A stretch of DNA of 64,000 bases from Pedococcus sp. 5OH_020 (GTDB lineage Bacteria > Actinomycetota > Actinomycetes > Actinomycetales > Dermatophilaceae). The translations under genes and the position numbers were made by a program. The stretch covers positions 62,001-126,000 of the forward strand of contig NZ_JAPYZV010000009.1 of NCBI RefSeq assembly GCF_027812955.1, read 5' to 3'. Each line of letters begins with the position of its first letter. Position 1 is the first letter of the stretch. This document shows, in pieces, positions 17,909 through 54,844 of the stretch. The notes beneath the pieces were generated by a model. The model saw only the letters and a program-made list of their open reading frames with translations, searched no databases and was not told where the DNA came from.

Positions 17909-17936
17909 TGAACCGCCGATACTGCGGCCTCGTCTC
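17909..17936 (+). promoter_or_regulatory. ECF-type promoter for the lipoprotein operon
   Basis: TGAACC (17909-17914), 16 bases, then CGTCTC (17931-17936). The -10 ends seven bases before the ATG at 17944, so the mRNA is probably leaderless. Its match in sequence and spacing to the sigma operon's own promoter indicates that the linked ECF sigma controls both directions. Confidence 0.65.
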
Positions 17937-17943
17937 CAGAGGC

Positions 17944-18456: not shown

Positions 18457-18467
18457 GGCCGGCCGAC

Positions 18468-18983: not shown

Positions 18984-19022
18984 GGTGAGGAGAGCGTCCA
19001 GGCGGGGCGCAGAGAGCTCGAG

Positions 19023-38796: not shown

Positions 38797-39693
38797 ATGG
38801 CCACCCCTGTTGCGACCAGCCCCAGCACCGCTGTCGGCCCGCGAGACTCCGCTGTCGCAGCAGCCTCCGGTCGGCGTCCGGGAGTGGCGCGGAACCGGCT
38901 CCTGGCGCTGATCGCCTGGTGCATAGTCGTGGGCGCCCTTAGCCCTTTCGCATGGCTCATCTCGACAGCGTTCAAGTCCAGGCTGGACGCGTTCTCGCCT
39001 ACGCCGGTGTTCTTGACCCGGCCCACGCTGGAGAACTTCCGCTCGGTGCTGTCGCAGGGCGAGTTCGCTCTGACCTACGCCAACTCACTCATCGTGGTTC
39101 TCGCCACAACGGCGTTCACCCTCCTGTTCGGGATCAGCGCGGGATATGCGCTGGCCCGTTCCGATCGCGCCAGCTCGAGGTGGATGGGTCGGTGGATCAT
39201 CGTGGTACGGATGACGCCGCCGATGGCGTTCGCCCTGCCGATGTTCCTGATGTTCCAGCGGCTACACCTGCTCGACACATACCCGGCGCTGGTGCTCGTG
39301 TACCTGACCATCACGCTGCCCTTCTGCACGTGGCTCATGGCGGGCTACTTCATGGGAATCCCTCCGGAACTTGAGGAAGCCGCGCGCATCGATGGCTGCA
39401 GCCGGGTCAGCGCGCTGTGGCGGGTGATTCTTCCCTCCGCCCGGCCGGGCATCGCCACAGCGGCGATCTTCTCGTTCATCTCGTCGTGGAACGAGTTCTT
39501 CTACCCGCTGGTCGTCGCCGGACGGACGACCAAACCAGCCTCGGTCGCCATCCAGGGCTTCATCAGCTCGGCCGGCGTCGACTGGGGCGGGCTGTCCGCG
39601 GCCGCCCTGCTCGTTCTGGCTCCGGTGTTCGTCTTCTCCCTCTTCACCCAGCGCGGGCTCGTCTCAGGCCTGACCGCTGGCGCCGTCAAGTAG
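38797..39693 (+). CDS. Carbohydrate ABC transporter permease (MalG/UgpE type)
   Basis: A 298-residue permease with six membrane helices and the EAA loop EEAARIDGCSRVSALWRVILP (about residues 187-207), which docks the ATPase. Helix one begins at about residue 32 after an unstructured N-terminus. It is the first gene of the plus-strand operon; usually the MalG-type gene comes last. The closing LVSGLTAGAVK is typical of sugar permeases. No ATPase is encoded nearby, so a shared MsiK-like ATPase is inferred. Confidence 0.92.
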   Translation: MATPVATSPSTAVGPRDSAVAAASGRRPGVARNRLLALIAWCIVVGALSPFAWLISTAFKSRLDAFSPTPVFLTRPTLENFRSVLSQGEFALTYANSLIVVLATTAFTLLFGISAGYALARSDRASSRWMGRWIIVVRMTPPMAFALPMFLMFQRLHLLDTYPALVLVYLTITLPFCTWLMAGYFMGIPPELEEAARIDGCSRVSALWRVILPSARPGIATAAIFSFISSWNEFFYPLVVAGRTTKPASVAIQGFISSAGVDWGGLSAAALLVLAPVFVFSLFTQRGLVSGLTAGAVK

Positions 39694-39729
39694 CTCAACA
39701 CCAGCCCTTACCCCAAGTCAGGAGTGTTC

Positions 39730-41064
39730 ATGAGATTTCGATCAATGCGTCGCACGGGTGCCGTCATGGTGCTTGTCGCGGCCGTCGCGGCCCAGACCGG
39801 CTGCTCCGGTCTGTCCGGTGGCGGTTCCGGTGGCGCCTCAGGATCGGCCGGGGCCACCACGCTCAACCTCCTCATGGTGGAACAAGACTCCACGAAGGAG
39901 CTACGCACCACCTTGATTCCCCAGTTCGAGAAGTCCTCTGGTATCAAGGTCAACGTCGAGCTGGTACCCGAGTCCGGGTACGACGCCAAGCTGGCCACTG
40001 CAGTAGACGCCACCAACGGTCAGTACGACGTCATCATGACGGGCGCCAAGCACTGGAACACGCTGGTGCCGCGCAAGGCCATCGTGCCTCTGGACGATCT
40101 AGCAAAGAGCAGCGGCAACGATCAGGGATACCTTGACGGCTTTCCCCATACCCTGCTCGACAACATCAAGGTGGACGGCAAGACCTACGCCATGCCCTAC
40201 CAGGTGGGCGCCGAGCTGCTGTTCTACAACAAGGACCTCTTCACCAAGGCAGGCCTGGATCCGCAGACCCCCCCGACCACACTTGCCGAGGTCGTTGCTG
40301 CAGCACAGACGATCAAGGCGAAGACCGGAAAGGCTGGCTTCGTCGGCCGTGGATCACGCGAAGCCAACGAGAACTCGTTCCTGTGGCTGATGATGTGGTT
40401 CCTCAACGGTGGCCGTTGGCCCGACGGCGCCGACCCGGCATCCTTCTCCGTACTGACCCAGCCGCCCGCACTGACCGCCACCAAGAACTACCTCGACCTG
40501 CTCGGCAAGTACGGCCCCAAGGGCGTGTCCAACTACGGCTTCGCCGAGGCCCAGCTCGCCATGCAGCAGGGCGAGGCCGGCATGTGGCTCGACGCCGCGC
40601 AGCTCGGTCCGGCGTTGGAGGACCCAGCCAAGTCCAAGATCGCCGGTGAGGTCGGCTATGCCGCCCTGAAGGGCCAAGGCGGCCAGGACTACATCGTGGG
40701 CGCGGTGTGGGGCTTCTCGGTCGCTGCCGCGACCAAGCACCAGCAGCAGGCATGGAAGCTGGTCCAGTTCCTCACCGGAGCCAAGACTGGAGTGGCGCAG
40801 GTGGTGTCCGGCACAAACGGCTCATCCGGGCGCTCGGACGTCCTCGCCGATCCTGCCGCCCAGAAGGCGCTCAATCCCGGCTTCGTCAGCGCCCTGACCG
40901 AGGCCATTGCGCACACCAATCCTCGCTACACACCCCTGATCCCGCAAGGACAGCAGATCCGCGGAGCCCTCGCACTCGAGCTCTCGAACAGCCTGTCCAA
41001 GGGCCGCACCCCGGAGGCAACAATGAAGGCAGCACAAGCCCAGGTGCAGGGCCTGCTCAAGTAA
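39730..41064 (+). CDS. Sugar-binding lipoprotein of the ABC importer (family 1)
   Basis: A 444-residue extracytoplasmic solute-binding protein with signal peptide RRTGAVMVLVAAVAAQTGC (lipobox QTGC) and family-1 features: LIPQFEKSSGIKVNVELVPES, YAMPYQVGAELLFYNKDLF and a C-terminal GRTPEATMKAAQAQV helix. It captures a carbohydrate and delivers it to the flanking permeases. The ATG at 39730 follows AGGAG at good spacing. Resemblance to polyol- or mannitol-type binders is possible, but the substrate is not proven. Confidence 0.92.
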   Translation: MRFRSMRRTGAVMVLVAAVAAQTGCSGLSGGGSGGASGSAGATTLNLLMVEQDSTKELRTTLIPQFEKSSGIKVNVELVPESGYDAKLATAVDATNGQYDVIMTGAKHWNTLVPRKAIVPLDDLAKSSGNDQGYLDGFPHTLLDNIKVDGKTYAMPYQVGAELLFYNKDLFTKAGLDPQTPPTTLAEVVAAAQTIKAKTGKAGFVGRGSREANENSFLWLMMWFLNGGRWPDGADPASFSVLTQPPALTATKNYLDLLGKYGPKGVSNYGFAEAQLAMQQGEAGMWLDAAQLGPALEDPAKSKIAGEVGYAALKGQGGQDYIVGAVWGFSVAAATKHQQQAWKLVQFLTGAKTGVAQVVSGTNGSSGRSDVLADPAAQKALNPGFVSALTEAIAHTNPRYTPLIPQGQQIRGALALELSNSLSKGRTPEATMKAAQAQVQGLLK

Positions 41065-41067
41065 GCC

Positions 41068-41982
41068 ATGACCACAATCATCACCACCCAACGCCGCCCG
41101 ACGCGCAGCAGACTGCGCGTCGGGGGCGACGGGCCCGGCGTCTATTCGGCGCTGCTCGCCCCAACCTTCCTGCTTCTGCTGATGATCACCGGCGTGCCAC
41201 TCGCGGTGTCCCTGTGGACCAGCCTGCAGCAGTGGAACCGCGGTTCCGCCCTCGCCCCACGGTTCATCGGGCTCGGCAACTTCACCGAGCTGGCCCAGGA
41301 CCCCGCCTTCTGGAAGGCACTGGGCCTCACCGCCTACCAGGTCGGTGCGACGGTCATCCTCCAGCTCGTGCTGGGCCTGGCCATCGCCCTCCTGCTCTCA
41401 AGGTCCTTCCGGGGTGTCGGCCTGCTGCGGTCGCTCTACCTTTTGCCGATGATGAGCACCCCGGTAGTCGTAGGGCTGATCTGGAAGATGCTGCTGAACA
41501 CCGACAACGGGATGGTCAACTACCTCCTGGGTCACGTAGGTCTTGGTCCCGTCAACTGGCTCGGGAGCACCACCTGGGCGATGCCGTCCGTGGTGCTGAC
41601 CGACCTGTGGCTGTCCACGCCCTTCGTTGTCGTCATCCTCGTCGCCGCCCTGCAGTCAGTGCCTCAGGAGGTGATGGAAGCCGCGGAGGTCGACGGCGCC
41701 TCATCGTGGCAACGACTGGTGCACATCGTGGTTCCGATCATCAAGCCCATGATCTTGCTGGCAGCGCTGTTCCGCACGATGGACGCCATCAAGAGGTTCG
41801 ACACGATCTACGTGATGACCGGCGGGGGGCCGGGCAACGCCACCGAGACGCTTGACCTGCATGCGTTCTTCTATGCGTTCACCTACCTCGACGTCGGCAA
41901 GGGTGCAGCCGTCGCCGTGGTGATGCTCGCCCTGGTCATGGTGATCTCCAGCGTGCTGCTGCGAACGATGCGCCCCCGCTAG
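41068..41982 (+). CDS. Carbohydrate ABC transporter permease (MalF/UgpA type)
   Basis: A 304-residue permease starting four bases after the binding protein. It has six helices, with EVMEAAEVDGASSWQRLVHI as the EAA loop (about residues 197-216) and the conserved FDTIYVMTGGGPGNATETL before the last helices. It pairs with the MalG-type permease encoded first in the operon. Confidence 0.92.
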   Translation: MTTIITTQRRPTRSRLRVGGDGPGVYSALLAPTFLLLLMITGVPLAVSLWTSLQQWNRGSALAPRFIGLGNFTELAQDPAFWKALGLTAYQVGATVILQLVLGLAIALLLSRSFRGVGLLRSLYLLPMMSTPVVVGLIWKMLLNTDNGMVNYLLGHVGLGPVNWLGSTTWAMPSVVLTDLWLSTPFVVVILVAALQSVPQEVMEAAEVDGASSWQRLVHIVVPIIKPMILLAALFRTMDAIKRFDTIYVMTGGGPGNATETLDLHAFFYAFTYLDVGKGAAVAVVMLALVMVISSVLLRTMRPR

Positions 41983-42054: not shown

Positions 42055-42879
42055 ATGAACTGGCTCAAGGAACTCTTCGACGTCGACACCCCCGTCATTG
42101 GCATGTGCCACCTCCCGGCGCTGCCGGGCGACCCGCACTACGACACCAGCATGGGTGTCACGGGGATCGTGGACTACGCCCGGCGCGAGATCGGGGCACT
42201 CCAAGATGGTGGGATCGACGGCATCCTCATCTCCAACGAGTTCAGCCTCCCCTACCTCACTCAGACCGAACCCATCACGGCCGCCGTCATGGCACGGGTA
42301 ATCGGCGAGTTGCGCTCACAGATCGCGGTGCCGTTCGGGGTGAACGTCCTGTGGGACGGCATCGCCTCGATCGACCTGGCCGTCGCGACCGGTGCGTCCT
42401 TTGTGCGGGAGATCTTCACCGGCGCCTACGCCAGCGACTTCGGCATCTGGAACACCAATGTCGGGGCAGCCGCCCGGCACCGGGCCAGGGTCGGGGCCGC
42501 GGACGTCAAGCTGCTGTTCAACATCGTCCCGGAGGCGGCCAGCTACCTGGCCGACCGCGACCTCGCCTCGATCGCCCGGTCGACCGTTTTCAACACCCGT
42601 CCGGACGCACTCTGCGTGTCGGGGCTGACCGCAGGAGCCACCACGGACATCGAACATCTGCGCACCGTCAAGGCTGCGGCAGGAGATACTCCTGTCATCG
42701 TGAACACAGGGGTGAACCGTGACAACGTGGCCGAGTTGTTGAGCGTGGCCGACGCCGCGATCGTGGGCACACATCTCAAGCGGGACGGCGTGTTCGAGAA
42801 CGCCGCCGACCCCGCCCGGGTAGCCGAGCTCATGCATGCTCTGCGAGGTGCGCGCCAGCCCTCGCAAGCCCATGCCTGA
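42055..42879 (+). CDS. BtpA/SgcQ-family TIM-barrel protein
   Basis: The 274-residue product matches BtpA/SgcQ: VIGMCHLPALPGDPHYD at the N-terminus, GGIDGILISNEFSLPYL, PFGVNVLWDGIASIDLAVATGASFVREI and IVGTHLKRDGVFENAADP near the C-terminus. BtpA was named for photosystem I biogenesis, but most bacterial members lie in sugar operons such as E. coli sgc and their activity is unknown. Its position between importer and kinase points to a carbohydrate step. Stop overlaps the kinase start. Confidence 0.88.
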   Translation: MNWLKELFDVDTPVIGMCHLPALPGDPHYDTSMGVTGIVDYARREIGALQDGGIDGILISNEFSLPYLTQTEPITAAVMARVIGELRSQIAVPFGVNVLWDGIASIDLAVATGASFVREIFTGAYASDFGIWNTNVGAAARHRARVGAADVKLLFNIVPEAASYLADRDLASIARSTVFNTRPDALCVSGLTAGATTDIEHLRTVKAAAGDTPVIVNTGVNRDNVAELLSVADAAIVGTHLKRDGVFENAADPARVAELMHALRGARQPSQAHA

Positions 42880-44380
42880 GCAACGGGCGGTCACCGTAGG
42901 CGTCGACATCGGCACCTACGAGACCAAGGCCACGGCAGTCGACGCCATCGGCGCAGTGGTGGCCACCGCCAAGTGCCCACACCAGCTGAGCCTCCCGGCG
43001 CCTGGGTTCGCCGAGCACGACGCCGAGACCGTCTGGTGGGGCGGCCTGGTCACCGCGGTTCGGAGTTTGCTCGACACGCCTTCCATGGCTGCCACGAGCG
43101 TGCAGGCATTGTGCTGCAGCGGAATCGGCCCCGCTGTGGTCCCGACGACTGCCGCTGGCCGGGCGCTGCGGCCGGCCATCCTCTACGGAATCGACACCAG
43201 GGCTGGCGACCAGGCAGACCAGATCGAGCAGCGCCTTGGCGCGGCGACGATCACTGCTCGCAGCGGCAACCAGCTGAGCTCGCAGTCCGCAGGTCCCAAG
43301 ATCGCCTGGCTGGCACAACACGAGCCGGACGTCGTCGCCGCGACAGCCGTGATTCACACGTGTCAGTCCTTCTTGGTCCACCGCCTCACCGGCCAGGTAG
43401 TGATGGACCACGCCACAGCCAGCTACTTCCACCCGTTGTACTCGTTGCGCGAACACAGGTGGGACACCGAGGGCTGCGAGTGGTTCGTCCGACCCGAGCA
43501 GCTACCCAGCCTCGCCTGGTCCGACCAGGTCGCCGGGCGCCTGTTGCCCGAGCCTGCGGCGCAGATCGGCCTGCCGGTTGGCACGCCCGTGCTCGTAGGC
43601 TCGGCAGATGCTCCCTGTGAGGCGCTGGCCTGTGACGTAGAACAACCCCACTCGGCGATGGTCATGTACGGCTCGTCAGGATTCATGATCGCCCCCACCG
43701 CGGATGCGATGCCTGGTGCTGGTCTCTACTGCGCACCCGGCCTGACCGATGGCAGCTGGTTGGTGGCCGCAGGCACCTCCACCGCGGGCACCGCCACCCG
43801 TTGGCTCACCCAACTGCTCCGTCTGGGCGGTGAGCCCGGCGGCTCCGAGTTCGTCGAGCTGGTCGCACTCGCGTCGTTGGCTCCCAAGGGCAGCCTGGGG
43901 CTCCTGGTGCTGCCGCACTTCTCCGGGGAACGCACCCCGTTCGACGACCCAGCTGCCCGCGGGGTCATCGAGGGGCTGAGCCTGGCCCACGGCCGAGCAG
44001 AGCTGGCCCGAGCGGTGCTCGAAGGGATCGCCCACTCCATGGTGCTGGCCCTGGCTTCGATGCTGGCGCACGCGGACACCGGCGGCCAGCACCGCCGTCT
44101 CTCGGCGATCGGGGGCGGCACCGCCAACCTCGTCTGGCTGCAGGCGGTCAGCGACATCGCCGGCCTGCCGCAGCAGGTCTTCAAGAGCCCCGGCGCAAGC
44201 TACGGCGGGGCACTTCTCGCCGGACGGGCGATCGGGCTCCTCGAGCGCAACGTTGTACCCGAATGCCGCCAACCCACCCTGACCATCGACCCGGACGAGG
44301 CCGCGCACGCCGCATACGTCCACGACCACGAACGATTCAGCCAGGTGTACACCGCTCTGCGACAGGTGAGAACCGCATGA
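42872..44380 (+). CDS. FGGY-family carbohydrate kinase
   Basis: A 502-residue kinase with the N-terminal phosphate motif VTVGVDIGTYETKATAVD, the central GYGSSG-like VMYGSSGFM, FSGERTPFDDPAARGVIEGLSL (FGGY region) and the adenosine loop LSAIGGGTANLVWLQAVSDI. It phosphorylates a ketose, polyol or sugar acid after import. The ATG at 42872 overlaps btpA by eight bases; an in-frame ATG at 42836 would add 12 residues. Given the KGPDC-like gene downstream, 3-keto-L-gulonate or L-xylulose are possible substrates. Confidence 0.9.
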   Translation: MPEQRAVTVGVDIGTYETKATAVDAIGAVVATAKCPHQLSLPAPGFAEHDAETVWWGGLVTAVRSLLDTPSMAATSVQALCCSGIGPAVVPTTAAGRALRPAILYGIDTRAGDQADQIEQRLGAATITARSGNQLSSQSAGPKIAWLAQHEPDVVAATAVIHTCQSFLVHRLTGQVVMDHATASYFHPLYSLREHRWDTEGCEWFVRPEQLPSLAWSDQVAGRLLPEPAAQIGLPVGTPVLVGSADAPCEALACDVEQPHSAMVMYGSSGFMIAPTADAMPGAGLYCAPGLTDGSWLVAAGTSTAGTATRWLTQLLRLGGEPGGSEFVELVALASLAPKGSLGLLVLPHFSGERTPFDDPAARGVIEGLSLAHGRAELARAVLEGIAHSMVLALASMLAHADTGGQHRRLSAIGGGTANLVWLQAVSDIAGLPQQVFKSPGASYGGALLAGRAIGLLERNVVPECRQPTLTIDPDEAAHAAYVHDHERFSQVYTALRQVRTA

Positions 44381-45540
44381 CCCGCCCACGAGCCACCGAT
44401 CAACCGACCTCGGCTCCCGACCTCATGCAGGGTCACTGGGGCAGCCTCGCGGCCTCCATCGCCACCGGTACATCCATCGGCGCCGGAGACAAGGTGGCCG
44501 TCGCGCTCACCGGCATCGAGGCCTACGATGCCGTCCACGCCCTGGTCGAGGAATGCCATCGTCGGGGAGCCACCCCCCAAGTGGTGCTGGCCGCGGAGGA
44601 CTTCGAACGCTCCGCGCTTGCCCTGCTCGACATCGCCGCACTGCGGCGGCCGGCGCCGCTGGAGCTGGCCGCCATCGAATGGGCCGACGTCTACATCGCC
44701 CTTCGAGCCATGACCGTCCCCCGGCAGCGCGAGACAGGAAGCGCCCCCAGCCCGAACCGCCAGGTGGCACAACGGCTCGGCAAGGGTGAGGTCTCCACCG
44801 CTCGCTGGCGCAGCACCCGTTGGTGTGTCGTCCGCCTACCCACCGCAGCGTGGGCGACGCGGGCAGGCGCCGACCCGGCCCGGATCGAGGCCGAGTTCCT
44901 GGCCGGGTGTACCCAGGACTGGCCCGCCTGGCGACGACGCTGGGGCATTCTCGCCGATGCATTGGACGGCAGCTCCACCGTGACGATCCTCGACGAAGAC
45001 ACCGACCTCAGCCTTGGCGTACGGGGGCGGACGTGGGTTCCCTTCGCCGGAGAGGCCAACCTGCCCGACGGTGAGGTTGCCACCGCGCCGCTTGAGAGCG
45101 AAACCAACGGGCACATCAGCTTTCCTGGGCGGTTCTGGTTCGCCGACACGGAGATTGCTGACCTGACACTGGTGTTCGAGAACGGACGCTGCACAAAGGC
45201 GGACGCATCCCGCGGCGGCGCCTTCGTCGAGCAGCTGGTCGCGGCAGATGAAGGGGCGGCCCTGGTCGGCGAGCTGGGGATCGGCCTCAACCCCTTCATG
45301 ACCACCCTCACCGGAGACCTGTTCATCGACGAGAAGATCCTGGGCACCGCCCACATCGCCATGGGCCGGGCATACCCCCAATGTGGCGGCCTCAACGAGT
45401 CCAGCATCCACTGGGACATCGTCAAGGACCTCAGGACACCCCGGGCGTCACTCTTGGTCGACGACGTGGCCCTCATCGACAGCGGCCGGGTCGTCGGTCC
45501 CCTGGCCGCAGCAACCGAACCGCTGACGAAAGGCTCATAA
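44377..45540 (+). CDS. M29 aminopeptidase-like protein in the sugar operon
   Basis: A 387-residue protein with the features of M29 (aminopeptidase T/AmpS): LPDGEVATAPLE, GELGIGLNP, LGTAHIAMG and IHWD carry the expected glutamates, histidines and aspartate that bind two metals. M29 enzymes cleave N-terminal residues from peptides. Membership of a sugar operon, with an ATGA overlap on the kinase, is unexpected and suggests action on another amide or ester, or a scavenging role. Metal ligands appear intact, so catalysis is likely. Confidence 0.82.
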   Translation: MTRPRATDQPTSAPDLMQGHWGSLAASIATGTSIGAGDKVAVALTGIEAYDAVHALVEECHRRGATPQVVLAAEDFERSALALLDIAALRRPAPLELAAIEWADVYIALRAMTVPRQRETGSAPSPNRQVAQRLGKGEVSTARWRSTRWCVVRLPTAAWATRAGADPARIEAEFLAGCTQDWPAWRRRWGILADALDGSSTVTILDEDTDLSLGVRGRTWVPFAGEANLPDGEVATAPLESETNGHISFPGRFWFADTEIADLTLVFENGRCTKADASRGGAFVEQLVAADEGAALVGELGIGLNPFMTTLTGDLFIDEKILGTAHIAMGRAYPQCGGLNESSIHWDIVKDLRTPRASLLVDDVALIDSGRVVGPLAAATEPLTKGS

Positions 45541-45541: not shown

Positions 45542-46246
45542 GTGAAGCATCCCAAGGTCCAGGTGGCTCTGGATGTCATCGAACTCGACGATGCCGTGCG
45601 ACTGGCCGAAGTGGCCCTCGACGCAGGGGCCGACTGGCTAGAGATCGGTAAGCCGTTCGTCGAGTTCAACGGGATCCGCGGCTGCGATAAGCTAACTCGC
45701 GCGTTCCCGGACCAGTACTGGCTGCTCGACCTCATGGTCATGGCCTCCCCAGCCAAGTACCTCGACGCGGCCGCCGGACTTGGCATCTCCAACGTCACCG
45801 TGACTGGGCTGGCGCCGATGGTGACCGTCGCTACCGCTGTCGAGCACGCCCGCACCGTGGGGGTGGCCGTCACCATCGACCTGTTCAACGTCGCCAACCT
45901 GCGCACGTCCTGCGGGAAGTATGCCGCGCTGGAACCGGACTACCTGATGGTCCACTTCGGGGTTGACCAGAAGCGCGCCGCGCCAGCGGGGTCCCCGGTC
46001 GAAGACCTGTCGGCGGTCGTCGCAGCCGCCTCGTGCCCCGTCAGCTACGCGACCTACGACCTCGAGGAGAGCCTCGCGGCCGTCGCCGCCGGGGCGTCGG
46101 TCATCGTTCAGGGAGAGCCGCTGCTCTCGCGCAAGGACGCCCCCACCGCACTGCGTCAGTTCATTACGACGACCCACGACGCTGGTGCCCGCCGCGCTGG
46201 GCATACCCCGGCACCCCTATCGACCACGAAGGAGATCGTGCTGTGA
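45542..46246 (+). CDS. KGPDC/hexulose-phosphate synthase-like barrel lacking the DxKxxD motif
   Basis: A 234-residue OMPDC-suprafamily barrel: VQVALDVIELDDAVRLAE, ADWLEIGKPFVEFNGIRG and VHFGVDQK align with UlaD/HPS proteins (3-keto-L-gulonate-6-phosphate decarboxylase, hexulose-6-phosphate synthase). The suprafamily's D-x-K-x-x-D motif is here D63-L-M65-V-M-A68, so the catalytic Lys and second Asp are gone. Either it catalyses a different reaction or is a regulatory homologue. The GTG start follows the previous stop by one base; GAAAGG is upstream. Confidence 0.82.
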   Translation: MKHPKVQVALDVIELDDAVRLAEVALDAGADWLEIGKPFVEFNGIRGCDKLTRAFPDQYWLLDLMVMASPAKYLDAAAGLGISNVTVTGLAPMVTVATAVEHARTVGVAVTIDLFNVANLRTSCGKYAALEPDYLMVHFGVDQKRAAPAGSPVEDLSAVVAAASCPVSYATYDLEESLAAVAAGASVIVQGEPLLSRKDAPTALRQFITTTHDAGARRAGHTPAPLSTTKEIVL

Positions 46247-47307
46247 TGCGCGCCGCTGTTGTCATCGCAGAACCCGGGGGTAAGCACCTGGAAGTCCGCC
46301 AGGTTCCCAAGCCCCAGCCCGGCCCCGGTCAGGTCCTGGTCCAGGTGGCGTTCGCCGGAGTCTGCGGGTCCGACACCCACGGCTTCCTCGACACCGAGGG
46401 CACGTCGCGCGCTGACGGGCTCATCATGAGCCATGAGATCAGCGGCACCATTGCGGAGCACGGGCCGGGCGTGAGCGACCCCCCCGTCGGCACCCGAGTC
46501 ACAGTGGACCCGCAGGTCGTGTGTGGCCAGTGCCCCGCCTGCCGCAAGGGCTGGATCTCGATCTGCGACCACAAGCAGGTGCTTGGCTCCTCCCTGCGCG
46601 GCTTCGTCCAGGGTGGCATGGCCGAGTACGTCGTGACCCACCAAGCCACCGTGCACCCCGTTCCCCCGTCGGTGACCGACGAGCAGGCCGCCCTCATCGA
46701 GCCCCTGGCAAACGCTCTGCACACGGTACGGAGAGCCGAGGTCCAACCCGGCGACAACGTCGTCGTCCTAGGCGCCGGACCCCTCGGCCTCTGCATGGTC
46801 CAGTGCTTGCGCAACACCGCCGCGAGGGTCATCGCTGTCACCGATCCCTCGGAGACGCGCCGCAACCTCGCGTTGCTCTGCGGAGCCGACATCGCGTGGG
46901 ACCCCAGGACAACGGATGTCGAGGCATCGGTACTGGAGCTCACCTCGGGTCGTGGCGCCGACGTGGTCATCGAGTCCGTGGGCATCGAGGCTACCTACCG
47001 TCAAGCGATCACGGTCGTACGCAAGCGCGGACGGGTGATGTTCTTCGGCGCAGTGCAACCAGAGGTTTCACTGCCACTGCTACCCATCCTGCACAAGGAG
47101 CTCTCCTTGATCGGATGCACGGGGGCGAATGACGAGACGGGTCCAGCCATCGAGCTCGTGGCTGCCGGCAAGGTCGACCTGTCCGCCATGACCGGGACGG
47201 TCGCCGGACTCAACGATGCCGAGTCCGCCATCCGAGCCCAGCTCGAACCGGGCTACAGTTCCGTCAAGCTGCTCATCGACCCTCGCCGCCAGCACATGGC
47301 CAGCTGA
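46246..47307 (+). CDS. Zinc-dependent medium-chain dehydrogenase (polyol/alcohol type)
   Basis: A 353-residue MDR enzyme. Catalytic zinc ligands are Cys40 (GVCGSDTHG) and His63-Glu64 (SHE). Four structural-zinc cysteines lie at 93, 96, 99 and 107 (CGQCPACRKGWISIC). The Rossmann loop VVLGAGPLGLCMVQ near 170 binds NAD(P). It resembles sorbitol/threonine dehydrogenases and probably oxidises the imported polyol or sugar acid. The start shares one base with the preceding stop (TGATG), and AAGGAGA is upstream. It ends the coupled operon, with the esterase 97 bases on. Confidence 0.9.
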   Translation: MRAAVVIAEPGGKHLEVRQVPKPQPGPGQVLVQVAFAGVCGSDTHGFLDTEGTSRADGLIMSHEISGTIAEHGPGVSDPPVGTRVTVDPQVVCGQCPACRKGWISICDHKQVLGSSLRGFVQGGMAEYVVTHQATVHPVPPSVTDEQAALIEPLANALHTVRRAEVQPGDNVVVLGAGPLGLCMVQCLRNTAARVIAVTDPSETRRNLALLCGADIAWDPRTTDVEASVLELTSGRGADVVIESVGIEATYRQAITVVRKRGRVMFFGAVQPEVSLPLLPILHKELSLIGCTGANDETGPAIELVAAGKVDLSAMTGTVAGLNDAESAIRAQLEPGYSSVKLLIDPRRQHMAS

Positions 47308-47404: not shown

Positions 47405-48385
47405 GTGCCGCTGTTCGATCTGCCCCTCAGCGAGCTGGAGCGCTACCTCCCCACGCGGAGTGGCCCGGCGGACTTCGATGCCTTCTGGGGCAGGACGCTG
47501 GCCGAGGCACGGAGCGCGGACCGTGCCGTCGACTCGGTGGCGTACGCCGCCAATCTCCCCTTTGTCCGGGTGCTTGACGCGTCGTTCGCCGGCTTCGGTG
47601 GACAACGCGTCCACGCCTGGTGGGTTCGCCCTGCCGGGGACGCGCCAAGTGGCGGTTGGCCCATGGTCGTGGAGTTCCTGGGTTACGGCGACGGCCGAGG
47701 CACGCCGCTGGACTGGTTGGCGTGGCCGGCCGCCGGTGTCGCCGTCCTCGTCATGGACACTCGGGGGCAGGGCGCCCGCGCGCGTCGTGCCGGAAGTACG
47801 GGAGACGCGGCAGGGTCATTGTCACCCCAGGTGGAGGGCTTCCTTACCAAGGGCGTCTTGAGCCCCCACGACTACTACTACCGGCGGGTTTTCACGGACG
47901 CTGTTCTCGCCGTCGATGTCGCACGATGTCTTCCGGGGACCGACCCCGCCCGCGTAGCCGTCCAGGGCACCAGCCAGGGCGGGGCGATCGCCCTCGCCGC
48001 GTCGGCCCTTGCCGACGGAGTGGCGGCGGCCATGGTGAACGTCCCCTTCTTGTGTCACGTCAAGCGGGCAATCGAGATCACGGACACCCGGCCGTACGCC
48101 GAACTGCTGGAGTTCGCGCGCACCCGGAAGGGCGACATCGAAACGGCCTTCCAGACACTTGCCTACTTCGACGGGATGGAGATGGCGGCGCGCGCCACGG
48201 TTCCGGCACTGTTCTCGGTGGCCCTGATGGACGACGTCTGTCCGCCCTCGACGGTCTACGCCGCCTACAACCACTATGCCGGGCCAAAGGAGATCGACGT
48301 CTTCACTTACAACAAGCATGAAGGCGGCGGGGAGCACCATGACCTGCGGCAGATCGGCTGGCTTCAGGAACGCTTCGGCATCTGA
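47405..48385 (+). CDS. Acetylxylan esterase / cephalosporin-C deacetylase family hydrolase
   Basis: The 326-residue alpha/beta hydrolase has the AXE1 family layout: MPLFDLPLSELERYLP at the start, MVVEFLGYGDGRG, the nucleophile GTSQGG (Ser190), an Asp in ALMDDVCPPS (276-277) and His305 in NKHEGGGEHHD. The class removes acetyl groups from xylan oligosaccharides or related sugars; it has no signal peptide, so it would act on imported acetylated sugars. GGAG six bases upstream supports the GTG at 47405. It probably extends the uptake operon. Confidence 0.88.
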   Translation: MPLFDLPLSELERYLPTRSGPADFDAFWGRTLAEARSADRAVDSVAYAANLPFVRVLDASFAGFGGQRVHAWWVRPAGDAPSGGWPMVVEFLGYGDGRGTPLDWLAWPAAGVAVLVMDTRGQGARARRAGSTGDAAGSLSPQVEGFLTKGVLSPHDYYYRRVFTDAVLAVDVARCLPGTDPARVAVQGTSQGGAIALAASALADGVAAAMVNVPFLCHVKRAIEITDTRPYAELLEFARTRKGDIETAFQTLAYFDGMEMAARATVPALFSVALMDDVCPPSTVYAAYNHYAGPKEIDVFTYNKHEGGGEHHDLRQIGWLQERFGI

Positions 48386-48553: not shown

Positions 48554-49360
48554 TCAGTGGTCGAGCGCTCCGGCGTCCACCGCCAGCACCGCCCCGGTGA
48601 CATACCGGGCTGCGGCCGACAGCAGCCAGGTGCTCGCCGCCGCGACATCGTCCGGCTCCACCCAAGGGATGGGGAGGTGGTGGCTGTCGAGGGCTGCGGC
48701 GGCCGCCTCGTCGCGACTGACCGAGCCCCCACGTCCAGCCACGATCTGCCACACGGCAGCACGCTGAAACATCGGGGTGTCCACGTTGGTGGGCGCCACG
48801 GCGTTGACCCGGATTCCGTAAGGCCCCAGCTCTCGGGCCGCCGTACGCACCAGCCCTAGCTGCGCGTGCTTGCTCATGACGTAATGGCCTACGGAGGGCA
48901 GGCCGCGCGCGGCGGCCACGGAGCCAGTCACGACGACCGCTCCTGTCGTGCGCGTGCCGACCCAGTGGTCCGCCGCTGCGCTCAGCAGGTTCCAGGTCCC
49001 GTAGACGTTGGTCTCCACCGTGAACCGCATGTCATGCTCATCCACCTGCCAGAAGGGTCCGTAGCCACGGCACACGCCGGCCGTCGCAAGGACGCCATCC
49101 AGCCGGCCCCACTGCTCGACCACGTCGGCCACGATCCTGGACACGGCCTGTGCGTCCCGCACATCTGTCGCGGCTCGCGAGTATCGACCACCCAGACGCG
49201 CTACTTCGTTGGCCGCGCTGTCCAGCGAGCTCAGGTCGAGCATGGCGACGACCGCTCCTTGCTGGGCCAGGGCGAGGGCTTGGGCACGTCCGACGCCACC
49301 CGCGGCGCCGGAGACGAGGAAGACCTTGTCCCGAAGGTCCGGATAGGTCGGCGTGGTCAC
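48554..49360 (-). CDS. Short-chain dehydrogenase/reductase (SDR)
   Basis: A 268-residue classical SDR: cofactor loop SGAAGGVGRA (about 17-26), Ser147 in VVVTGSVAA, Tyr160-x3-Lys164 in GHYVMSKH, and APTNVDTPMF after the active site. Asp at the end of beta-2 (AMLDLSSLD) favours NAD. It likely interconverts a sugar hydroxyl and ketone. It closes the minus-strand importer operon; its GTG overlaps the previous gene's stop (GTGA). Confidence 0.9.
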   Translation of the reverse strand: MTTPTYPDLRDKVFLVSGAAGGVGRAQALALAQQGAVVAMLDLSSLDSAANEVARLGGRYSRAATDVRDAQAVSRIVADVVEQWGRLDGVLATAGVCRGYGPFWQVDEHDMRFTVETNVYGTWNLLSAAADHWVGTRTTGAVVVTGSVAAARGLPSVGHYVMSKHAQLGLVRTAARELGPYGIRVNAVAPTNVDTPMFQRAAVWQIVAGRGGSVSRDEAAAAALDSHHLPIPWVEPDDVAAASTWLLSAAARYVTGAVLAVDAGALDH

Positions 49361-50841
49361 GGCGCACCGACCACGTGCGCGGTGCGGAGGTCCAGGCCGG
49401 TGGTGCCCGAAGGCCGAAAGCCCTGGAGCGTTCTGCTCCATGCCGTCGGCTGCGGGCGATGCCCGAGCACCGCCATGGAACACTGCGTCGCAGCGGCGCG
49501 CTGCAGTTGGCCCAGGAGCTCGCGTCTCAGGTGCGGCTCTGGCGTGCGGACCAGCCGCCGCACCAGCGCGTGGTTGCCGTCCACCTCATACTTGGGCTGG
49601 TGGGCGTAGTGGCGCGCCCATCGGCCCGTCAGGTACCAGCGTAGGAAGAACTCCCCGTCGCGCCCGAAGATGCTTGGATCGCCCGAGGCCATCAGCACCT
49701 GGAATCGTCCGGCGGGAATCTCCTTCTCGAAGAGGTCCGCGGTGTGGGCCGTTATAGCGCGAGCCGAGATCCCCACGGCTGCCAGCTGCTCGACGACCAG
49801 CTCGGCTTGACGGACGACCCAGTCGGCACTGGACACCAGGAGCTCGATCTCGACGCCGGACGCACCTGCCTGCCTCAACAGAGCGCGGGCCGCATGCAGA
49901 TCGTGGGCGGGCTCCTCGGCGCAGGCGACATAGTCAGGATGCCAACGGGGCAGGAGCGCGCCGGACGGTTCGAAGCGTCCACGGTGCACGGTGTGGGCGA
50001 GTTGCTCTCGGTCCATGGCCAAGGCCACCGCGCGACGGACACGCACGTCGCCGAACAGCTCGTCGGCACAGTTGAAGAGCAACCACGTGGTGTTCATCCC
50101 CCTGACCCATGCCGAGGCCAGGTCCGGACGCCCCTCGAGCAGGGCCAGCCCGTCCTGTGGGGCCTCCTCGATCACGTGGACGTCGCCCTCGAGCAGGCGG
50201 CTCATTCGCTCCATCGGCTCAGGGGTGGCGAGCAGGTCCAACGGCGAGCGATGGTCGCCATCGTCCTCGAGCAGGGCGTAACCTGGCGCCGGTTCGAGGG
50301 TGGCGCCGCAGGGGTCGTGGGAGACCACACGGTAAGGGCCGGTGCCGTGAGGCAGATTATCCTCGGACCAGACTGCCGAGTGCGGCTGCACTCGGACGAG
50401 GCTCAGGCGCTCGTCGAGCAGGGGCAGTGCGGAGTCGGTGCGCAGCTCCACCTGGCCTTCTGTGAGGATGATCGCCTCCTGGACACCATCCAGGCCGGCC
50501 GACATGAACCCGCCCGATCCAGGGCCGTCGATCAACGAGCGGATGCTAGTCGCGACGTCGTCGGCCGTCACCCTGCTGCCGTCGTGAAACCGCGCCCGAT
50601 CATCGATGTCGAGGACATATCGCCCTTGTGCGGTCTGGTGCGCTCGGCCCCTCAGCACTCCGGGCGCGAGTGCCATGGAGGCGAGGTCACGACGCAGGAG
50701 GGGGTCATGGACGTGGCCGAGAACGGCCACCCCGCCGGCTGTCGCGGCATGCTGCGGGTCGAGGCTGCCGATGACGAACCCCAAGCTTCCTCTGACGGGA
50801 CGCCTGCGTGCGGTGGTCGTCCCCTGGCGAGTCGTCGTCAC
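49357..50841 (-). CDS. Signal-less family-5 solute-binding-like protein
   Basis: A 494-residue protein homologous to SBP_bac_5 (oligopeptide/nickel-type binders): RGSLGFVIGSLDPQHAATAGG, then GTGPYRVVSHDP, VRRAVALAMDREQL and a closing helical lobe. The usual signal peptide and lipobox are missing; it starts (GTG at 50841, GTGA overlap with the permease) directly at the mature fold. It should therefore stay in the cytosol, like the sugar-sensing C-terminal domain of SgrR, and could sense or bind an intracellular ligand. An error in start choice is unlikely because the permease ends there. Confidence 0.82.
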   Translation of the reverse strand: MTTTRQGTTTARRRPVRGSLGFVIGSLDPQHAATAGGVAVLGHVHDPLLRRDLASMALAPGVLRGRAHQTAQGRYVLDIDDRARFHDGSRVTADDVATSIRSLIDGPGSGGFMSAGLDGVQEAIILTEGQVELRTDSALPLLDERLSLVRVQPHSAVWSEDNLPHGTGPYRVVSHDPCGATLEPAPGYALLEDDGDHRSPLDLLATPEPMERMSRLLEGDVHVIEEAPQDGLALLEGRPDLASAWVRGMNTTWLLFNCADELFGDVRVRRAVALAMDREQLAHTVHRGRFEPSGALLPRWHPDYVACAEEPAHDLHAARALLRQAGASGVEIELLVSSADWVVRQAELVVEQLAAVGISARAITAHTADLFEKEIPAGRFQVLMASGDPSIFGRDGEFFLRWYLTGRWARHYAHQPKYEVDGNHALVRRLVRTPEPHLRRELLGQLQRAAATQCSMAVLGHRPQPTAWSRTLQGFRPSGTTGLDLRTAHVVGAP

Positions 50842-51659
50842 TTGACGCTTCCGGCCGTGAGGCCGCCGACGAGGTGCTTCTCGACGAGCAGGAACAGCAC
50901 GACGACAGGCACGATCGCTACCAGCGAGGTCGCGAAGAGGTGTTGCCACTCGACCTCGTCCTTGCCGATGAACTGGGTGAGGCCGACCTGCAACGGCTTC
51001 TTGGCCTCGGTGGTGATCAGGGTCAGTGCAACGATGAACTCGTTCCAGGCGGCGATGAACGCGTATACGGCCACGGTCACCAGCCCCGGGCGGATGACAG
51101 GCAGGACCACGAGTAGCAGGGCGCGCTGGCGTGAGCAGCCGTCGATCCAGGCGGCCTCCTCCAAGGAGGCCGGGATCGTCAGGATGAAGCCGCGCAGAAG
51201 CCAGATCGCGAATGCCAGGTTGAACGCGGTGTTGATGACGACCAGGCTGCCGAGGTTGTCCAGGGCGCGGAAGGAGGCGAACTCCCGGTAGAGACCGACG
51301 ATCAGCGCCACGGGGGCAAGCATCTGGACCACGAGCATGGCGAAGAGATAGAGCCGGCGGCCGGGAAAGGCGAACCGGGCACTGGCATAGGCGGCCGGCA
51401 CCGCGATGAGGAGCACCAGCAGCGTCGACGACGAGGCGACCACCAGGGAGTTCAGCATGTAGCGGGCGACCGGCGCCGCCTGCCACATGGTGACGTAGTT
51501 GTCGAACCGCCAGTCCTGCGGCAGGAGCCGACCCGGCGTGAGCGACAGCTCGCTCGCCGGCTTCAAGGACGTGAAGAGCATCACCAGGTATGGGCTGAGC
51601 AGCACGACGGCGACAGCCGTGCCGCCGATCGTCGCCCTGCCCGTTGTCCGAGCCGCCAT
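50838..51659 (-). CDS. Carbohydrate ABC transporter permease (MalG type)
   Basis: A 273-residue permease with six membrane helices and EAA loop SLEEAAWIDGCSRQRALLLV, ending LVGGLTAGSVK. The ATG at 51659 begins four bases after the stop of the MalF-type gene; a longer frame to 51707 overlaps it. It works with the adjacent permease and lipoprotein. As in the plus-strand operon, no ATPase is present. Confidence 0.92.
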   Translation of the reverse strand: MAARTTGRATIGGTAVAVVLLSPYLVMLFTSLKPASELSLTPGRLLPQDWRFDNYVTMWQAAPVARYMLNSLVVASSSTLLVLLIAVPAAYASARFAFPGRRLYLFAMLVVQMLAPVALIVGLYREFASFRALDNLGSLVVINTAFNLAFAIWLLRGFILTIPASLEEAAWIDGCSRQRALLLVVLPVIRPGLVTVAVYAFIAAWNEFIVALTLITTEAKKPLQVGLTQFIGKDEVEWQHLFATSLVAIVPVVVLFLLVEKHLVGGLTAGSVK

Positions 51660-51663
51660 CAGG

Positions 51664-52635
51664 TCACTCCATTCTCGAACGTCGGACGTACAACGCGACC
51701 CCGACACCGATGACGATCACATTGAGGACCGACATCGCGGCGCCTGCACCCACGTCCCTCTCGGTGAGGAATGCCACCTTGTACATGAAGGTCGTCGAGG
51801 TGTCGCTCAGGTACCCCGGATTGCTCTTGTTGAGGACGTAGACGATGGGAAACGAGTTGAAGATCCAGATGGAGTTCAGCAGCACCGTGACGGTCAACGG
51901 ACCCCGCAGAAGAGGCAGAACGATGTGCCGGTACGACTGCCACCGACCGGCGCCGTCGATGGCGGCCGCCTCCAGGACGTCGTCCGAGATGGTGCGCAGG
52001 CCGGATAGCAGCGCGAAACACGTGAAGGGCAGCGACACGAACGCCACCACGCCGATCATGACCCACCGGATCGTTCTGTCGCTGCCCAGCCAGTCCACCG
52101 GGGCAGCGATGACGTGGAGCCTCATCAGCAGAGGGTTCAGGACCCCGTAGTAGTAGTTGAGAATCCAACGGAAGCCGATCGCACTCATGACGACGGAGGT
52201 GGCCCACGGCACGATGAGCGCAATGCGCAGGAACCGGTTGCCCCAGAACTCCTTGGACATCAGCTGCGCCAGAGGCAGGGACACCAGCGTCGTGAGGACC
52301 ACCCCCAGGACCACCCACACGACGGTGTTGACGATGACCCTGGGAAAGGCGGGGTTCTCGATGATGGTTCGGTAGTTGTCCCATCCGGCGGATCCTTTCA
52401 CCGCACCAGTGAGCGAGAACGACTGGAACGATGAACGGACTGTCTCGATCAGGGGGTACACGACGACCACCAAGATCAGGACGACACTGGGCCCTAGCCA
52501 GCCAGCCAGGCCCAGCCACCCCACATCCTGCGGAGACCGCCTCTGACGGCGCCCCGTGCTGGCTCCACCCCCCTGTCGCCCGCCACTGTGGGTGACGGGC
52601 GACGAGGATGGGGCGGGCCCGTTGGCCGCTGTCAC
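51664..52635 (-). CDS. Carbohydrate ABC transporter permease (MalF type)
   Basis: A 323-residue permease: a Ser/Gly/Arg-rich cytosolic N-terminus of about 40 residues, then six helices, with EAA loop DVLEAAAIDGAGRWQSYRHI and the characteristic FNSFPIVYVLNKSNPG before the last helices. The GTG start lies four bases after the binding-protein stop. Confidence 0.92.
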   Translation of the reverse strand: MTAANGPAPSSSPVTHSGGRQGGGASTGRRQRRSPQDVGWLGLAGWLGPSVVLILVVVVYPLIETVRSSFQSFSLTGAVKGSAGWDNYRTIIENPAFPRVIVNTVVWVVLGVVLTTLVSLPLAQLMSKEFWGNRFLRIALIVPWATSVVMSAIGFRWILNYYYGVLNPLLMRLHVIAAPVDWLGSDRTIRWVMIGVVAFVSLPFTCFALLSGLRTISDDVLEAAAIDGAGRWQSYRHIVLPLLRGPLTVTVLLNSIWIFNSFPIVYVLNKSNPGYLSDTSTTFMYKVAFLTERDVGAGAAMSVLNVIVIGVGVALYVRRSRME

Positions 52636-52639
52636 AGGA

Positions 52640-53881
52640 TCAAGAACTGGTTGCTACGGCTTGGATGTCGTCGAGGACCTTCTGCGGATCCTGACCTTGC
52701 ACTGCCAGCCCCAGGGAGTTCTTCATGGCCCCGAGGACCTTGTCCCAGTTCTCCTCCCCCACAGGTGCGAACTTCGCCGACTTGAGCGCTTCAATGTACG
52801 GCCCGAACTTGGGCTTCTGTGCGAGTGCCGCCTGAGCCCCGCTCGTGACGGGCAGAAGACCTTCCGTCTCGATGAACTTGGTGTAGTTCTTGTCGCTGAA
52901 GGCGAGGTCAAGGAACTGCTTGACCGCATCCTGGTTGCCCGGCTTCTTGAAGGCCATGATGTAGTCGGCCACGCCCAGGCTGGTGGGGGTGACACCGGGC
53001 GCCGCCGGGAACGGCGCCACCTTGTAGGGAGTTCCCGACTTCTCGAGCCGATCCGCGAGACCGCCCTGTCCGATGGTCATGGCGGCGGTCCCGGCCTCGA
53101 ACAGCTGCCACGACCCCTCGACGCGACCGGTCTTGCCGGGGTTGACCTCGGTGGCCTTCTTCTCAGTGAGGCCCTTGAGGAACTCGAGCGCCTTGACGTT
53201 CTGCTGCGAGTTGATGGCCCACTTCCCATCAGCCATGTATGAACCTCCCATGTTGAACATGAAGGTCGAGAAGTCGATGTGCGGGGCCTCGGGGCTGAGC
53301 GACAGCGCGAAACCCACCTTGCCAGGCAGCTTGGAGACCGCCAGGGCGTCCGACTGGAGCTCGTCGAGCGAGGCCGGGGGGTTCGTGAGGCCCGCCTGCT
53401 TGAAGATGGCGGGGTTGTAGAACAGGGCAGAGTCACTGCCCACCAGGGGGATTCCGAACTCCTTGCCCTTGTAGGAGCCCGACGTACGCAGGTTCTCCGG
53501 CAGGTTGTCCCGCAATGCCTGGGTCTCGATGTCTGGGGCCGGCCAGAGCAGGTCGTCAGCGGCATACTGTGAGAACGAGTCGAGGTTGAGGACGTCGGGC
53601 AGCTGGTTGGTCTGCACCATCGTGCTCACCTGCTGGTGGATGTCGTTCCACCCGATGACCTGCAGTTCGACTTTGACGCCCGTCTTGGCCGTGAAGTCCT
53701 TCGCCACCTGCTGCCAGTAGGGGCTGGTGGAGCTGCTGTACTCCGCAGCGACTACTTTGATCGATTTGGTGGGCGAGCCCCGGTCCTCGGTCGAGGCGGA
53801 GGGGGATCCTCCGCATGCGGTGAGGGCGAGGACGGCGGCGGTCGCGGCCACCGGCAACGACATCTTGAGTGTGCGCATCAT
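52640..53881 (-). CDS. Sugar-binding lipoprotein (family 1) of the second importer
   Basis: A 413-residue lipoprotein with signal MSLPVAATAAVLALTAC (lipobox LTAC) and a family-1 fold: AKDFTAKTGVKVELQVIGWND, LPDVLNLDSFSQYAADD, FGIPLVGSDSALFYNPAIF. It is the first gene of the minus-strand operon and the most highly expressed subunit is usually encoded there. Its promoter carries an operator-like palindrome (53962-53973). Confidence 0.92.
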   Translation of the reverse strand: MMRTLKMSLPVAATAAVLALTACGGSPSASTEDRGSPTKSIKVVAAEYSSSTSPYWQQVAKDFTAKTGVKVELQVIGWNDIHQQVSTMVQTNQLPDVLNLDSFSQYAADDLLWPAPDIETQALRDNLPENLRTSGSYKGKEFGIPLVGSDSALFYNPAIFKQAGLTNPPASLDELQSDALAVSKLPGKVGFALSLSPEAPHIDFSTFMFNMGGSYMADGKWAINSQQNVKALEFLKGLTEKKATEVNPGKTGRVEGSWQLFEAGTAAMTIGQGGLADRLEKSGTPYKVAPFPAAPGVTPTSLGVADYIMAFKKPGNQDAVKQFLDLAFSDKNYTKFIETEGLLPVTSGAQAALAQKPKFGPYIEALKSAKFAPVGEENWDKVLGAMKNSLGLAVQGQDPQKVLDDIQAVATSS

Positions 53882-54067: not shown

Positions 54068-54844
54068 TCAGGGCTTGACCTGCATGATTTCCAACCCAGC
54101 GCGGCGAAGCTCCTCCACCTGGTCGCGGGGGGCTTGCATGTCCGTGATCAGCAGGTCTAGCTGATGGAGGTCGGCGACCTGGGCGAAGTTGACCTCGCCG
54201 AGCTTGGTGTGGTCGGCGAGGACCACGGTCTTGCGTGCCGACTCGACGAGGTGTCGCTTGATCTCGACGTCGTCCAAATTGAAATCGGTGACCCCGGCTC
54301 GAGGATCGACCCCCGCGACGCCGAGGAAGGCGATATCCACGCGCATCTTCCGAAAGTGGGCGAGCGCGCTCTCACCAGTCATCGACAGCTCGTCCTCCCG
54401 GACGACGCCGCCGGAGACGATCAGCCGGAACGGCCGCATCAGCGTCTTGCTGTTCGCCACCGCCCAGGCGGTGCGCAGGTTGGCTGTGACGATGGTGAGG
54501 TTCGCGGCATGACCCAGGTGGTCGATCATGTGCAGCACCGTCGAGCCCACGTCCAGGGCAATGGCGTCCCCGCTGTTCACCATCTTCGCCGCTGCTTTGG
54601 CGATCGCTTCCTTCCCAGCGGACTGCTGCTGCTCGCGCACGCGGAACGGCCGCTCGGACGACCGACCACTGACGGGCACGGCACCACCGTGGACGCGCCG
54701 GAGGAACCCATCGGCCTCGAGCTCCAAGAGGTCCCGTCGAGCGGTGATCTCCGAGACGCCGAGGCGCTGCGCGAGCTCGACCACCTCAACTCTGCCCGCC
54801 TCGTTGACAATGCTTAGGAGCGCCTCGTGCCGCTCGCTCTTCAT
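54068..54844 (-). CDS. DeoR/GlpR-family sugar-responsive transcriptional regulator
   Basis: A 258-residue regulator. The DeoR helix-turn-helix (residues 3-57: ERHEALLSIVNEAGRVEVVE, then LGVSEITARRDLLELEADG) is followed by LRRVHGGAVP and a DeoR C-terminal sensor domain (IALDVGSTVLHMIDHL, and TANLRTAW). Its phosphosugar-binding fold usually relieves repression when a sugar phosphate accumulates. It lies upstream of, and transcribes towards, the importer operon after a 186-base gap, and likely binds the palindrome in that promoter. It may also control the plus-strand operon. Confidence 0.92.
   Translation of the reverse strand: MKSERHEALLSIVNEAGRVEVVELAQRLGVSEITARRDLLELEADGFLRRVHGGAVPVSGRSSERPFRVREQQQSAGKEAIAKAAAKMVNSGDAIALDVGSTVLHMIDHLGHAANLTIVTANLRTAWAVANSKTLMRPFRLIVSGGVVREDELSMTGESALAHFRKMRVDIAFLGVAGVDPRAGVTDFNLDDVEIKRHLVESARKTVVLADHTKLGEVNFAQVADLHQLDLLITDMQAPRDQVEELRRAGLEIMQVKP

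Follow-up and report, generated by a model that had tools for sequence, protein, structure and literature searches.

The window, a stretch of 64,000 nucleotides from Pedococcus sp. 5OH_020 (contig NZ_JAPYZV010000009.1, positions 62,001 to 126,000), encodes a barrel protein, here labelled HPS-MA, that belongs to a conserved branch of the hexulose-phosphate synthase (HPS)/KGPDC group; HPS is the enzyme with which bacteria fix formaldehyde. Two parts of the active site have been lost in this branch: the Lys/Asp pair of the DxKxxD motif and the cradle for the substrate phosphate. OMPDC, HPS, and KGPDC are a classic example of how a single active site can serve several reactions. HPS-MA would show which part of that site is dispensable, as it drops the Lys/Asp pair and the cradle and keeps the metal/His core, and it gives experimenters a specific protein in which to probe the remaining chemistry of the site. 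It also ties the sgc operon of Escherichia coli to ABC/kinase operons of other phyla, making the pathway approachable where its substrate may be easier to find. The features discussed are collected in Table 1.

Table 1. Coordinates of HPS-MA, its altered segments, its gene neighbors, and its nearest DxKxxD relatives (window positions unless a locus is named)
Feature	Position	Strand	Evidence
HPS/KGPDC-like (beta/alpha)8 barrel with D63-x-M65-x-x-A68 (HPS-MA)	45542..46246	+	ORF, domain match, alignments, AF2 model
Altered DxKxxD motif D63-L-M-V-M-A68, beta-3	45728..45745	+	Sequence; D63, M65, A68 in 7/7
Beta-7 loop Y169-A-T-Y-D173, GG phosphate pair lost, one residue shorter	46046..46060	+	Alignment of seven
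Beta-8 loop G191-E-P193, instead of G-R (KGPDC) or G-G-A (most HPS controls)	46112..46120	+	Alignment
Sugar ABC transporter permease	38797..39693	+	ORF; homologues in six other operons
Sugar ABC transporter solute-binding protein (SBP_bac_1)	39724..41064	+	Domain match
Sugar ABC transporter permease	41068..41982	+	Domain match
BtpA/SgcQ family barrel (59% identity with SgcQ of E. coli)	42055..42879	+	Domain, tree, AF2 model (mean pLDDT 85.9)
FGGY carbohydrate kinase, ATG 42872 overlapping btpA stop	42872..44380	+	Domain match
M29-like metallohydrolase, 4-base overlap with kinase gene	44377..45540	+	PF02073 (E 3.7e-39); alignment with L001, L004
Zinc-dependent medium-chain dehydrogenase, TGATG overlap with barrel stop	46246..47307	+	Domain match
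AXE1-type esterase, probable GTG start 47405, downstream	47405..48385	+	Domain match
DeoR-family regulator, 5.7 kb past operon, opposite strand	54068..54844	-	Domain match
HPS-like DLKxMD proteins	L131:4649-5329; L132:8390-9181		Alignment, tree

The barrel gene and its fold

The HPS-MA reading frame opens with a GTG, closes with a TGA at 46244-46246, and encodes 234 amino acids. Its G+C content at codon positions one to three (0.70, 0.47, and 0.84) is as expected for a real gene in G+C-rich DNA. Profile PF00215 (OMPdecase/HUMPS) matches the protein over positions 1-220 of 221 with 33 bits, against a cut-off of 27, and also matches all seven members of the family described below (E <= 0.01). 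HPS-type NCBIfam models likewise match every member; the HPS and KGPDC models match the window protein far under their cut-offs, the HPS model TIGR03128 giving 93 bits where its curated cut-off is 200. By sequence, the closest solved chain is the HPS 9lj9 (E 1e-28). An AF2 model of the window protein (mean pLDDT, 89.4) superposes best on the HPS structures 3ajx and 3f4w (Z 28.0; rmsd 1.8 over 206 and 209 residues), followed by 9lj9 (Z 27.5), KGPDC (Z 24.8-26.9), and OMPDC (Z up to 23.9). With a PF00215 match and HPS as the nearest folds, the original prediction of an HPS/KGPDC-like barrel is supported.

The altered motif is fixed in the family

A scan of genome contigs recovered six homologues of the window protein with 47-53% identity, from an Actinomycetes metagenome-assembled genome (MAG), Fredinandcohnia onubensis, Cohnella faecalis, a Chloroflexi MAG, a Dorea MAG, and a Lachnospiraceae MAG; they thus represent Actinomycetota, Chloroflexota, and Bacillota. 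In the alignment, D63, M65, and A68 of the window protein occupy the columns of D62, K64, and D67 of UlaD, the KGPDC of E. coli, bearing out the claim that HPS-MA keeps the first aspartate of the motif and has Met and Ala in place of its Lys and second Asp. The window protein and the six homologues all carry D63, M65, and A68; not one of the homologues, which come from btpA operons like that of the window, retains DxKxxD, as the refuting condition first proposed would have required. The Lys and Asp are kept in UlaD, counted apart, and in all 31 HPS-type controls (the 29 proteins L009-L037, L038, and HxlA of Corynebacterium deserti), which are not independent, as 29 of them are the top-scoring loci of one phylum sample. 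Family-locus duplicates (L007, L008, L039-L041, L134, and L135) and H_L044, the same protein as HxlA_Cdes, were excluded from the counts.

Because M65 and A68 are present in every member at only 47-53% identity, against Lys and Asp in 31 of 31 controls, the change is a fixed family trait and neither chance nor a strain mutation. We found no support for a strain-specific mutation or a decaying gene, an explanation that the shared M..A residues, the intact frame, its tight coupling to neighboring genes, and the normal codon-position G+C make extremely improbable. The accompanying claim that the operon is intact and the gene not simply decaying also stands, with all seven proteins encoded in like operons.

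In a tree of 40 proteins, the seven HPS-MA sequences form a single clade (support, 100/100). Their nearest rows are two DLKxMD proteins, L131 and L132, a placement with weak support (87/72) and a long-branch warning. L131 is a paralogue inside the Fredinandcohnia genome, so both motif states coexist in one organism, in separate operons. Given this tree, the likeliest origin of the M..A changes is an ancestor with DxKxxD. A profile built from the seven separates them from the next proteins in their own genomes (E of 2.2e-107 or better against about 1e-48), the high scores of the members following by construction.

The phosphate cradle is lost, and the catalytic core is kept

To define active-site columns, we used the UlaD residues listed in Table 1 of PMC5980557, plus G171. 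The column of UlaD G170, in the beta-7 GG pair, is a gap in all seven HPS-MA proteins, and that of G171 holds Thr (five) or Val (two); both glycines are present in all 31 controls. At position 192 (UlaD R192), six members have Glu and one Tyr, followed by an invariant P193, and the UlaD T36 column (position 37 in the window protein) holds Lys in three and Asn in four. The alignment thus indicates that the substrate-phosphate cradle was dismantled together with the Lys/Asp pair, and for the nature of the substrate, this loss matters no less than the Lys and Asp changes do. The earlier statement that the rest of the fold is well preserved holds for the barrel itself but not for its beta-7 and beta-8 phosphate loops, lost in all members.

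The columns of UlaD A9, D11, E33, G35, D62, H136, and G191, in contrast, hold the identical residue in all seven proteins, and that of E112 is Asp throughout, as in the 31 controls; in window numbering, D11, E34, G36, D63, D113, H138, and G191 are invariant. Several further residues do not vary among the seven but differ, or are not constant, in the controls; they include F42, Y73, F115, N116, F139, K144, Y169, Y172, and D173. According to PMC10176493, HPS forms an enolate that Mg2+ stabilizes; charged residues coordinate the metal, and a histidine acts as the base. The core of such Mg-enediolate enzymes with a His base (E33, D62, and His136) is retained as E34, D63, and H138 in 7/7 members. 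We take these residues to be the counterparts of the HPS metal and base residues.

Since D11, E34, D63, D113, and H138 are all kept, decay or a purely structural role is disfavored. A non-enzymatic role as a regulatory or structural subunit, with BtpA or a metabolite as the binding partner, would explain the absence of two canonical catalytic residues and of the cradle, as well as the presence of a second barrel, BtpA, in the same operon in all seven cases; yet metal and acid/base residues shared by all members at about 50% identity would be unexpected in a binding-only protein, and we consider this role very unlikely. The original prediction of either a changed chemistry or a non-enzymatic role therefore survives in its first half, which is likely, rather than in its second.

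Distribution of HPS-MA

HPS-MA is absent from the 10 other genomes searched in the window's genus, and among 396 genomes of its phylum, only the window's own reached a member-level score. Samples of 348, 344, 201, and 199 genomes around other members returned the seed genomes only (E <= 1e-60). Several of these searches scored only some first-look candidates per genome, and the contig scan required exact matches to six short peptides; the seven members are a lower bound, and the rarity is approximate. Plasmids gave 87 records, all below 60% identity (of the 20 listed, 18 were annotated hxlA, one lay in an unannotated record, and one had no gene listed), and the viral contigs searched contained no member. 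The distribution is patchy, with horizontal spread as the simplest reading, and HPS-MA is a real and conserved, if apparently rare, branch of a known enzyme group.

By the title of a 2024 paper, cyanobacterial BtpA reportedly takes part in tetrapyrrole biosynthesis. Among the literature matches listed, no paper deals with the HPS-MA type or with BtpA in such operons. BtpA/SgcQ is merely named as a gene family in the relevant part of a Knollia genome report (PMC11433714).

A conserved operon around the barrel gene

The HPS-MA frame begins one base past the M29-like gene, and its stop overlaps the dehydrogenase start. Because the btpA, kinase, and M29-like genes overlap as well, the five genes from btpA to the dehydrogenase look like one transcript. 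All seven HPS-MA loci encode BtpA, an FGGY kinase, a zinc dehydrogenase, and an ABC importer, and the dehydrogenase gene always lies immediately downstream of the barrel gene. A metallohydrolase is equally constant, although its kind is not: M29-like enzymes (window, L001, and L004) and M42 enzymes (the other four) swap in otherwise matching operons (window 44377-45540 and L001-L006). The three M29 carriers form one subclade of the barrel tree (100/98). Alignments show that the positions expected to form the metal site (His, Asp, Glu-Glu, Asp, and His) are conserved in the M42 proteins, as are Glu, His, and Asp positions in the M29-like ones; these residues are presumably the metal ligands. 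A DeoR-type gene is found in six of the seven loci, including the window, where it is a possible regulator of the region, and none was found in the L003 stretch.

Two other parts of the window are worth recording. On the opposite strand, 48554-53881 holds a second sugar-type ABC system and an SDR near the mycofactocin-coupled type, for which it scores 226 bits where the cut-off is 300; a family-5 solute-binding protein gene lies beside them. At 31549-35661, also on the minus strand, a large protein combines DUF4011, AAA_11/AAA_12, and an MTES_1575 endonuclease domain and is a possible defense or DNA-processing gene product.

Related BtpA proteins occur in HPS-MA and SgcE operons

The E. coli sgc operon (sgcRXBCQAE) encodes an M42 hydrolase (SgcX), a BtpA protein (SgcQ), the RPE-like SgcE, a PTS, and a DeoR regulator. 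It resembles the HPS-MA operons in its closely related BtpA, its DeoR regulator, and its M42 hydrolase, the kind found in four of the seven, and the HPS-MA operons carry the combination that defines the sgc type for us, namely, an SgcQ-like BtpA, a metallohydrolase, and a second barrel. The two differ in uptake, by PTS in E. coli and by an ABC importer, with an FGGY kinase, in all seven HPS-MA loci; in the barrel slot, held by SgcE in the former and HPS-MA in the latter; and in the zinc dehydrogenase gene, which E. coli lacks but the sgc-like locus L089 has.

We compared the operon proteins with 43 BtpA gene neighborhoods, taken from genomes sampled in the family of the Dorea MAG and in the phylum of the window, and built a BtpA tree from 51 proteins, an 80-bit floor excluding L118 (49 bits). 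One 27-row branch (99) contains all seven HPS-MA loci together with five SgcE loci (E. coli, L088, L089, L090, and L092), and the two barrel types are intermixed within it. On this tree, the barrel labels undergo four changes each, two of them forced by starred branches, and E. coli SgcQ pairs with the BtpA of the Fredinandcohnia HPS-MA operon (86). Thus, related BtpA proteins occur in both operon types. In none of the 12 loci does the operon include both barrels; L005 does have a housekeeping rpe at a distance of about 6 kb from btpA, which we did not count as an operon barrel. Of the other 15 rows, three (L091, L093, and L094) have neither barrel. The remaining 12 make up a sub-branch (100) with SgcE-type barrels in L109 and L112, given apart here, and neither barrel in the other ten, so that 13 of the 27 rows lack both barrels by this search.

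An FGGY kinase gene is present in 7/7 HPS-MA loci against 0/5 SgcE loci (Fisher p 0.0013), or 2/7 with L109 and L112 included (p 0.021), although these values treat few and related loci as independent; the L092 count disregards a weak match to FGGY (47 bits) at the far end of that locus. PTS-type genes accompany SgcE in four of the five loci, the exception being L088, and in L090, the SgcE gene lies on the opposite strand to btpA. In L109 and L112, SgcE-type barrels with an intact phosphate loop share the locus with FGGY genes; therefore, an unphosphorylated substrate cannot be deduced from the presence of a kinase by itself. Both this pairing and the kinase in every HPS-MA locus would suit an ordinary phosphate-using 3-epimerase whose phosphate has shifted and is held by, for example, K37/N37, K144, and the following Lys/Arg. 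With position 37 divided between Lys and Asn and position 192 acidic in six of seven members, however, such an enzyme seems unlikely.

No solved relative of BtpA was found by sequence (best E, 0.11). In the best 50 matches listed for its AF2 model, phosphate-binding barrels of many kinds match about equally, and nothing would follow from the modeled fold about the reaction of BtpA. In the account of the sgc genes in PMC13343008, they form a module induced on some nitrogen-containing carbon sources; their deletion mutants are reported there to have no growth defect under the tested conditions, the function not being established. Speculatively, a metallohydrolase splitting an amide-like bond would fit the release of nitrogen. 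The genes of L094 point the same way: in this locus (8907-18999 of G622, from the Dorea MAG family sample), a BtpA operon includes genes for a creatininase-family protein, a PnrA-like binding protein, an inosine-uridine nucleoside hydrolase, an M42 hydrolase, and an FGGY kinase, which suggests N-glycoside or nucleoside-like substrates for some BtpA pathways. In L093 (8529-11150; G601), two divergent BtpA genes flank a phosphotriesterase-family gene, with PTS-type genes in the locus.

Proposed function

The reading that we favor, tentatively and as something short of probable, is that HPS-MA is an active HPS/KGPDC branch that keeps the Mg2+-enediolate core and acts as an epimerase or isomerase on an unphosphorylated keto-sugar, in the slot that the RPE-like SgcE holds in E. 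coli-type sgc operons. The loss of the cradle, together with the presence of a kinase in every HPS-MA operon, suggests that the substrate has still to be phosphorylated. By analogy with its relatives, the enzyme would bind an enediolate through Mg2+, with E34 and D63 as metal ligands and D11, D113, and H138 as acid/base residues, so that a keto-sugar without phosphate could be enolized and then re-protonated. In the pathway, the ABC importer would bring in a conjugate, the M29 or M42 metallohydrolase would free its sugar part, and the zinc dehydrogenase would make a ketone. HPS-MA would rearrange this ketone, the FGGY kinase would phosphorylate the product, and BtpA, which resembles phosphate-binding barrels, might handle the resulting phosphate.

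RPE is an epimerase without a K64-type lysine, and the chemistry left to HPS-MA, enolization and re-protonation, would resemble that of RPE. A narrower proposal, which we regard as doubtful, makes HPS-MA an HPS-derived 3-epimerase of free sugars in which the Lys was swapped for the Met of RPE and the cradle was dismantled, and which replaces SgcE, a member of a different barrel branch, in the ABC/kinase version of sgc. If true, it would provide a handle on the role of BtpA/SgcQ and of the sgc operon.

The main rival to an epimerase or isomerase is that HPS-MA is still an HPS/KGPDC-type lyase (a retro-aldolase or decarboxylase), retuned to a new, perhaps unphosphorylated or bulkier, product of the dehydrogenase, with K144 as a relocated cation in place of K64. 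HPS is indeed closest to HPS-MA in both sequence and fold, the dehydrogenase gene is the next one downstream in every locus, and K144, in the beta-6 loop, is invariant in the seven, whereas 30 of 31 HPS controls have Gln. The E. coli yia/lyx genes follow the same logic, combining a dehydrogenase, an FGGY kinase, and a KGPDC-like barrel. Yet K64 and D67 are kept in every lyase-type sequence examined and are both gone from HPS-MA, as is the phosphate cradle, and a scan of operon proteins with domain models turned up no hxlB-like isomerase. On balance, a retuned lyase is possible but somewhat unlikely.

Comparison with HPS, KGPDC, and RPE

HPS-MA shares with HPS its whole fold (Z 27.5-28.0) and residues D11, E34, G36, P38, D63, D113, H138, and D142. 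It differs in the Lys-to-Met and Asp-to-Ala changes of DxKxxD, in Lys or Asn instead of Thr after beta-2, in the beta-7 GG pair, lost with a one-residue deletion, and in the beta-8 loop, where GGA has become G-E/Y-P. The KGPDCs UlaD and SgbH likewise have the same fold (Z 24.8-26.9) and the same metal and His positions. The KGPDC residues K64, D67, R139, T169, and R192, in contrast, are Met, Ala, Val, Ala, and Glu/Tyr in HPS-MA; G170 and G171 are also absent, and E112 is replaced by Asp, as in HPS.

L131 and L132 (the latter from genome G225) constitute a further HPS-like group, with an insert near 147-150 and a beta-8 G-A-P-L shared with or near HPS-MA. They keep DLKxMD and the GG pair, and they lie in other operons, with xylose-isomerase-like barrels and dehydrogenases.

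The likeness to RPE centers on M65. In the structural superposition of Table 1 of PMC5980557, RPE M70 (1tqj) shares a column with KGPDC K64 and HPS K61, and RPE H68 shares one with KGPDC D62 and HPS D59. An automatic profile-profile alignment against seven RPE/SgcE sequences (probability 95; E 3.5e-8) likewise sets D63 on the RPE His and M65 on the Met. All seven HPS-MA proteins thus have the methionine of the RPE HxM motif, a residue that is not universal in RPE/SgcE themselves: four of the seven aligned have it, L090 has Leu, and L109 and L112 have Glu. We considered whether the beta-3/alpha-3 segment resembles RPE in general and set this aside, as the mean score to six RPE/SgcE segments exceeds that to HPS only in the window protein and L001 and is equal or lower in the other five. 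We also dropped an equivalence of Met136 with RPE Met141, since M141 shares a column with KGPDC S138 in Table 1 of PMC5980557, which corresponds to G140 here.

A GG phosphate loop is absent from HPS-MA. So is the set H35, D37, H68, and D179 (1tqj numbering), which we take to be the RPE metal site; HPS-MA has E34, G36, D63, and A170 at these positions. With these other RPE residues absent, HPS-MA is not an RPE. In setting, the E. coli SgcE barrel nevertheless resembles it: each is encoded in a sugar operon next to a metallohydrolase and a BtpA protein, and the BtpA proteins of the two are related.
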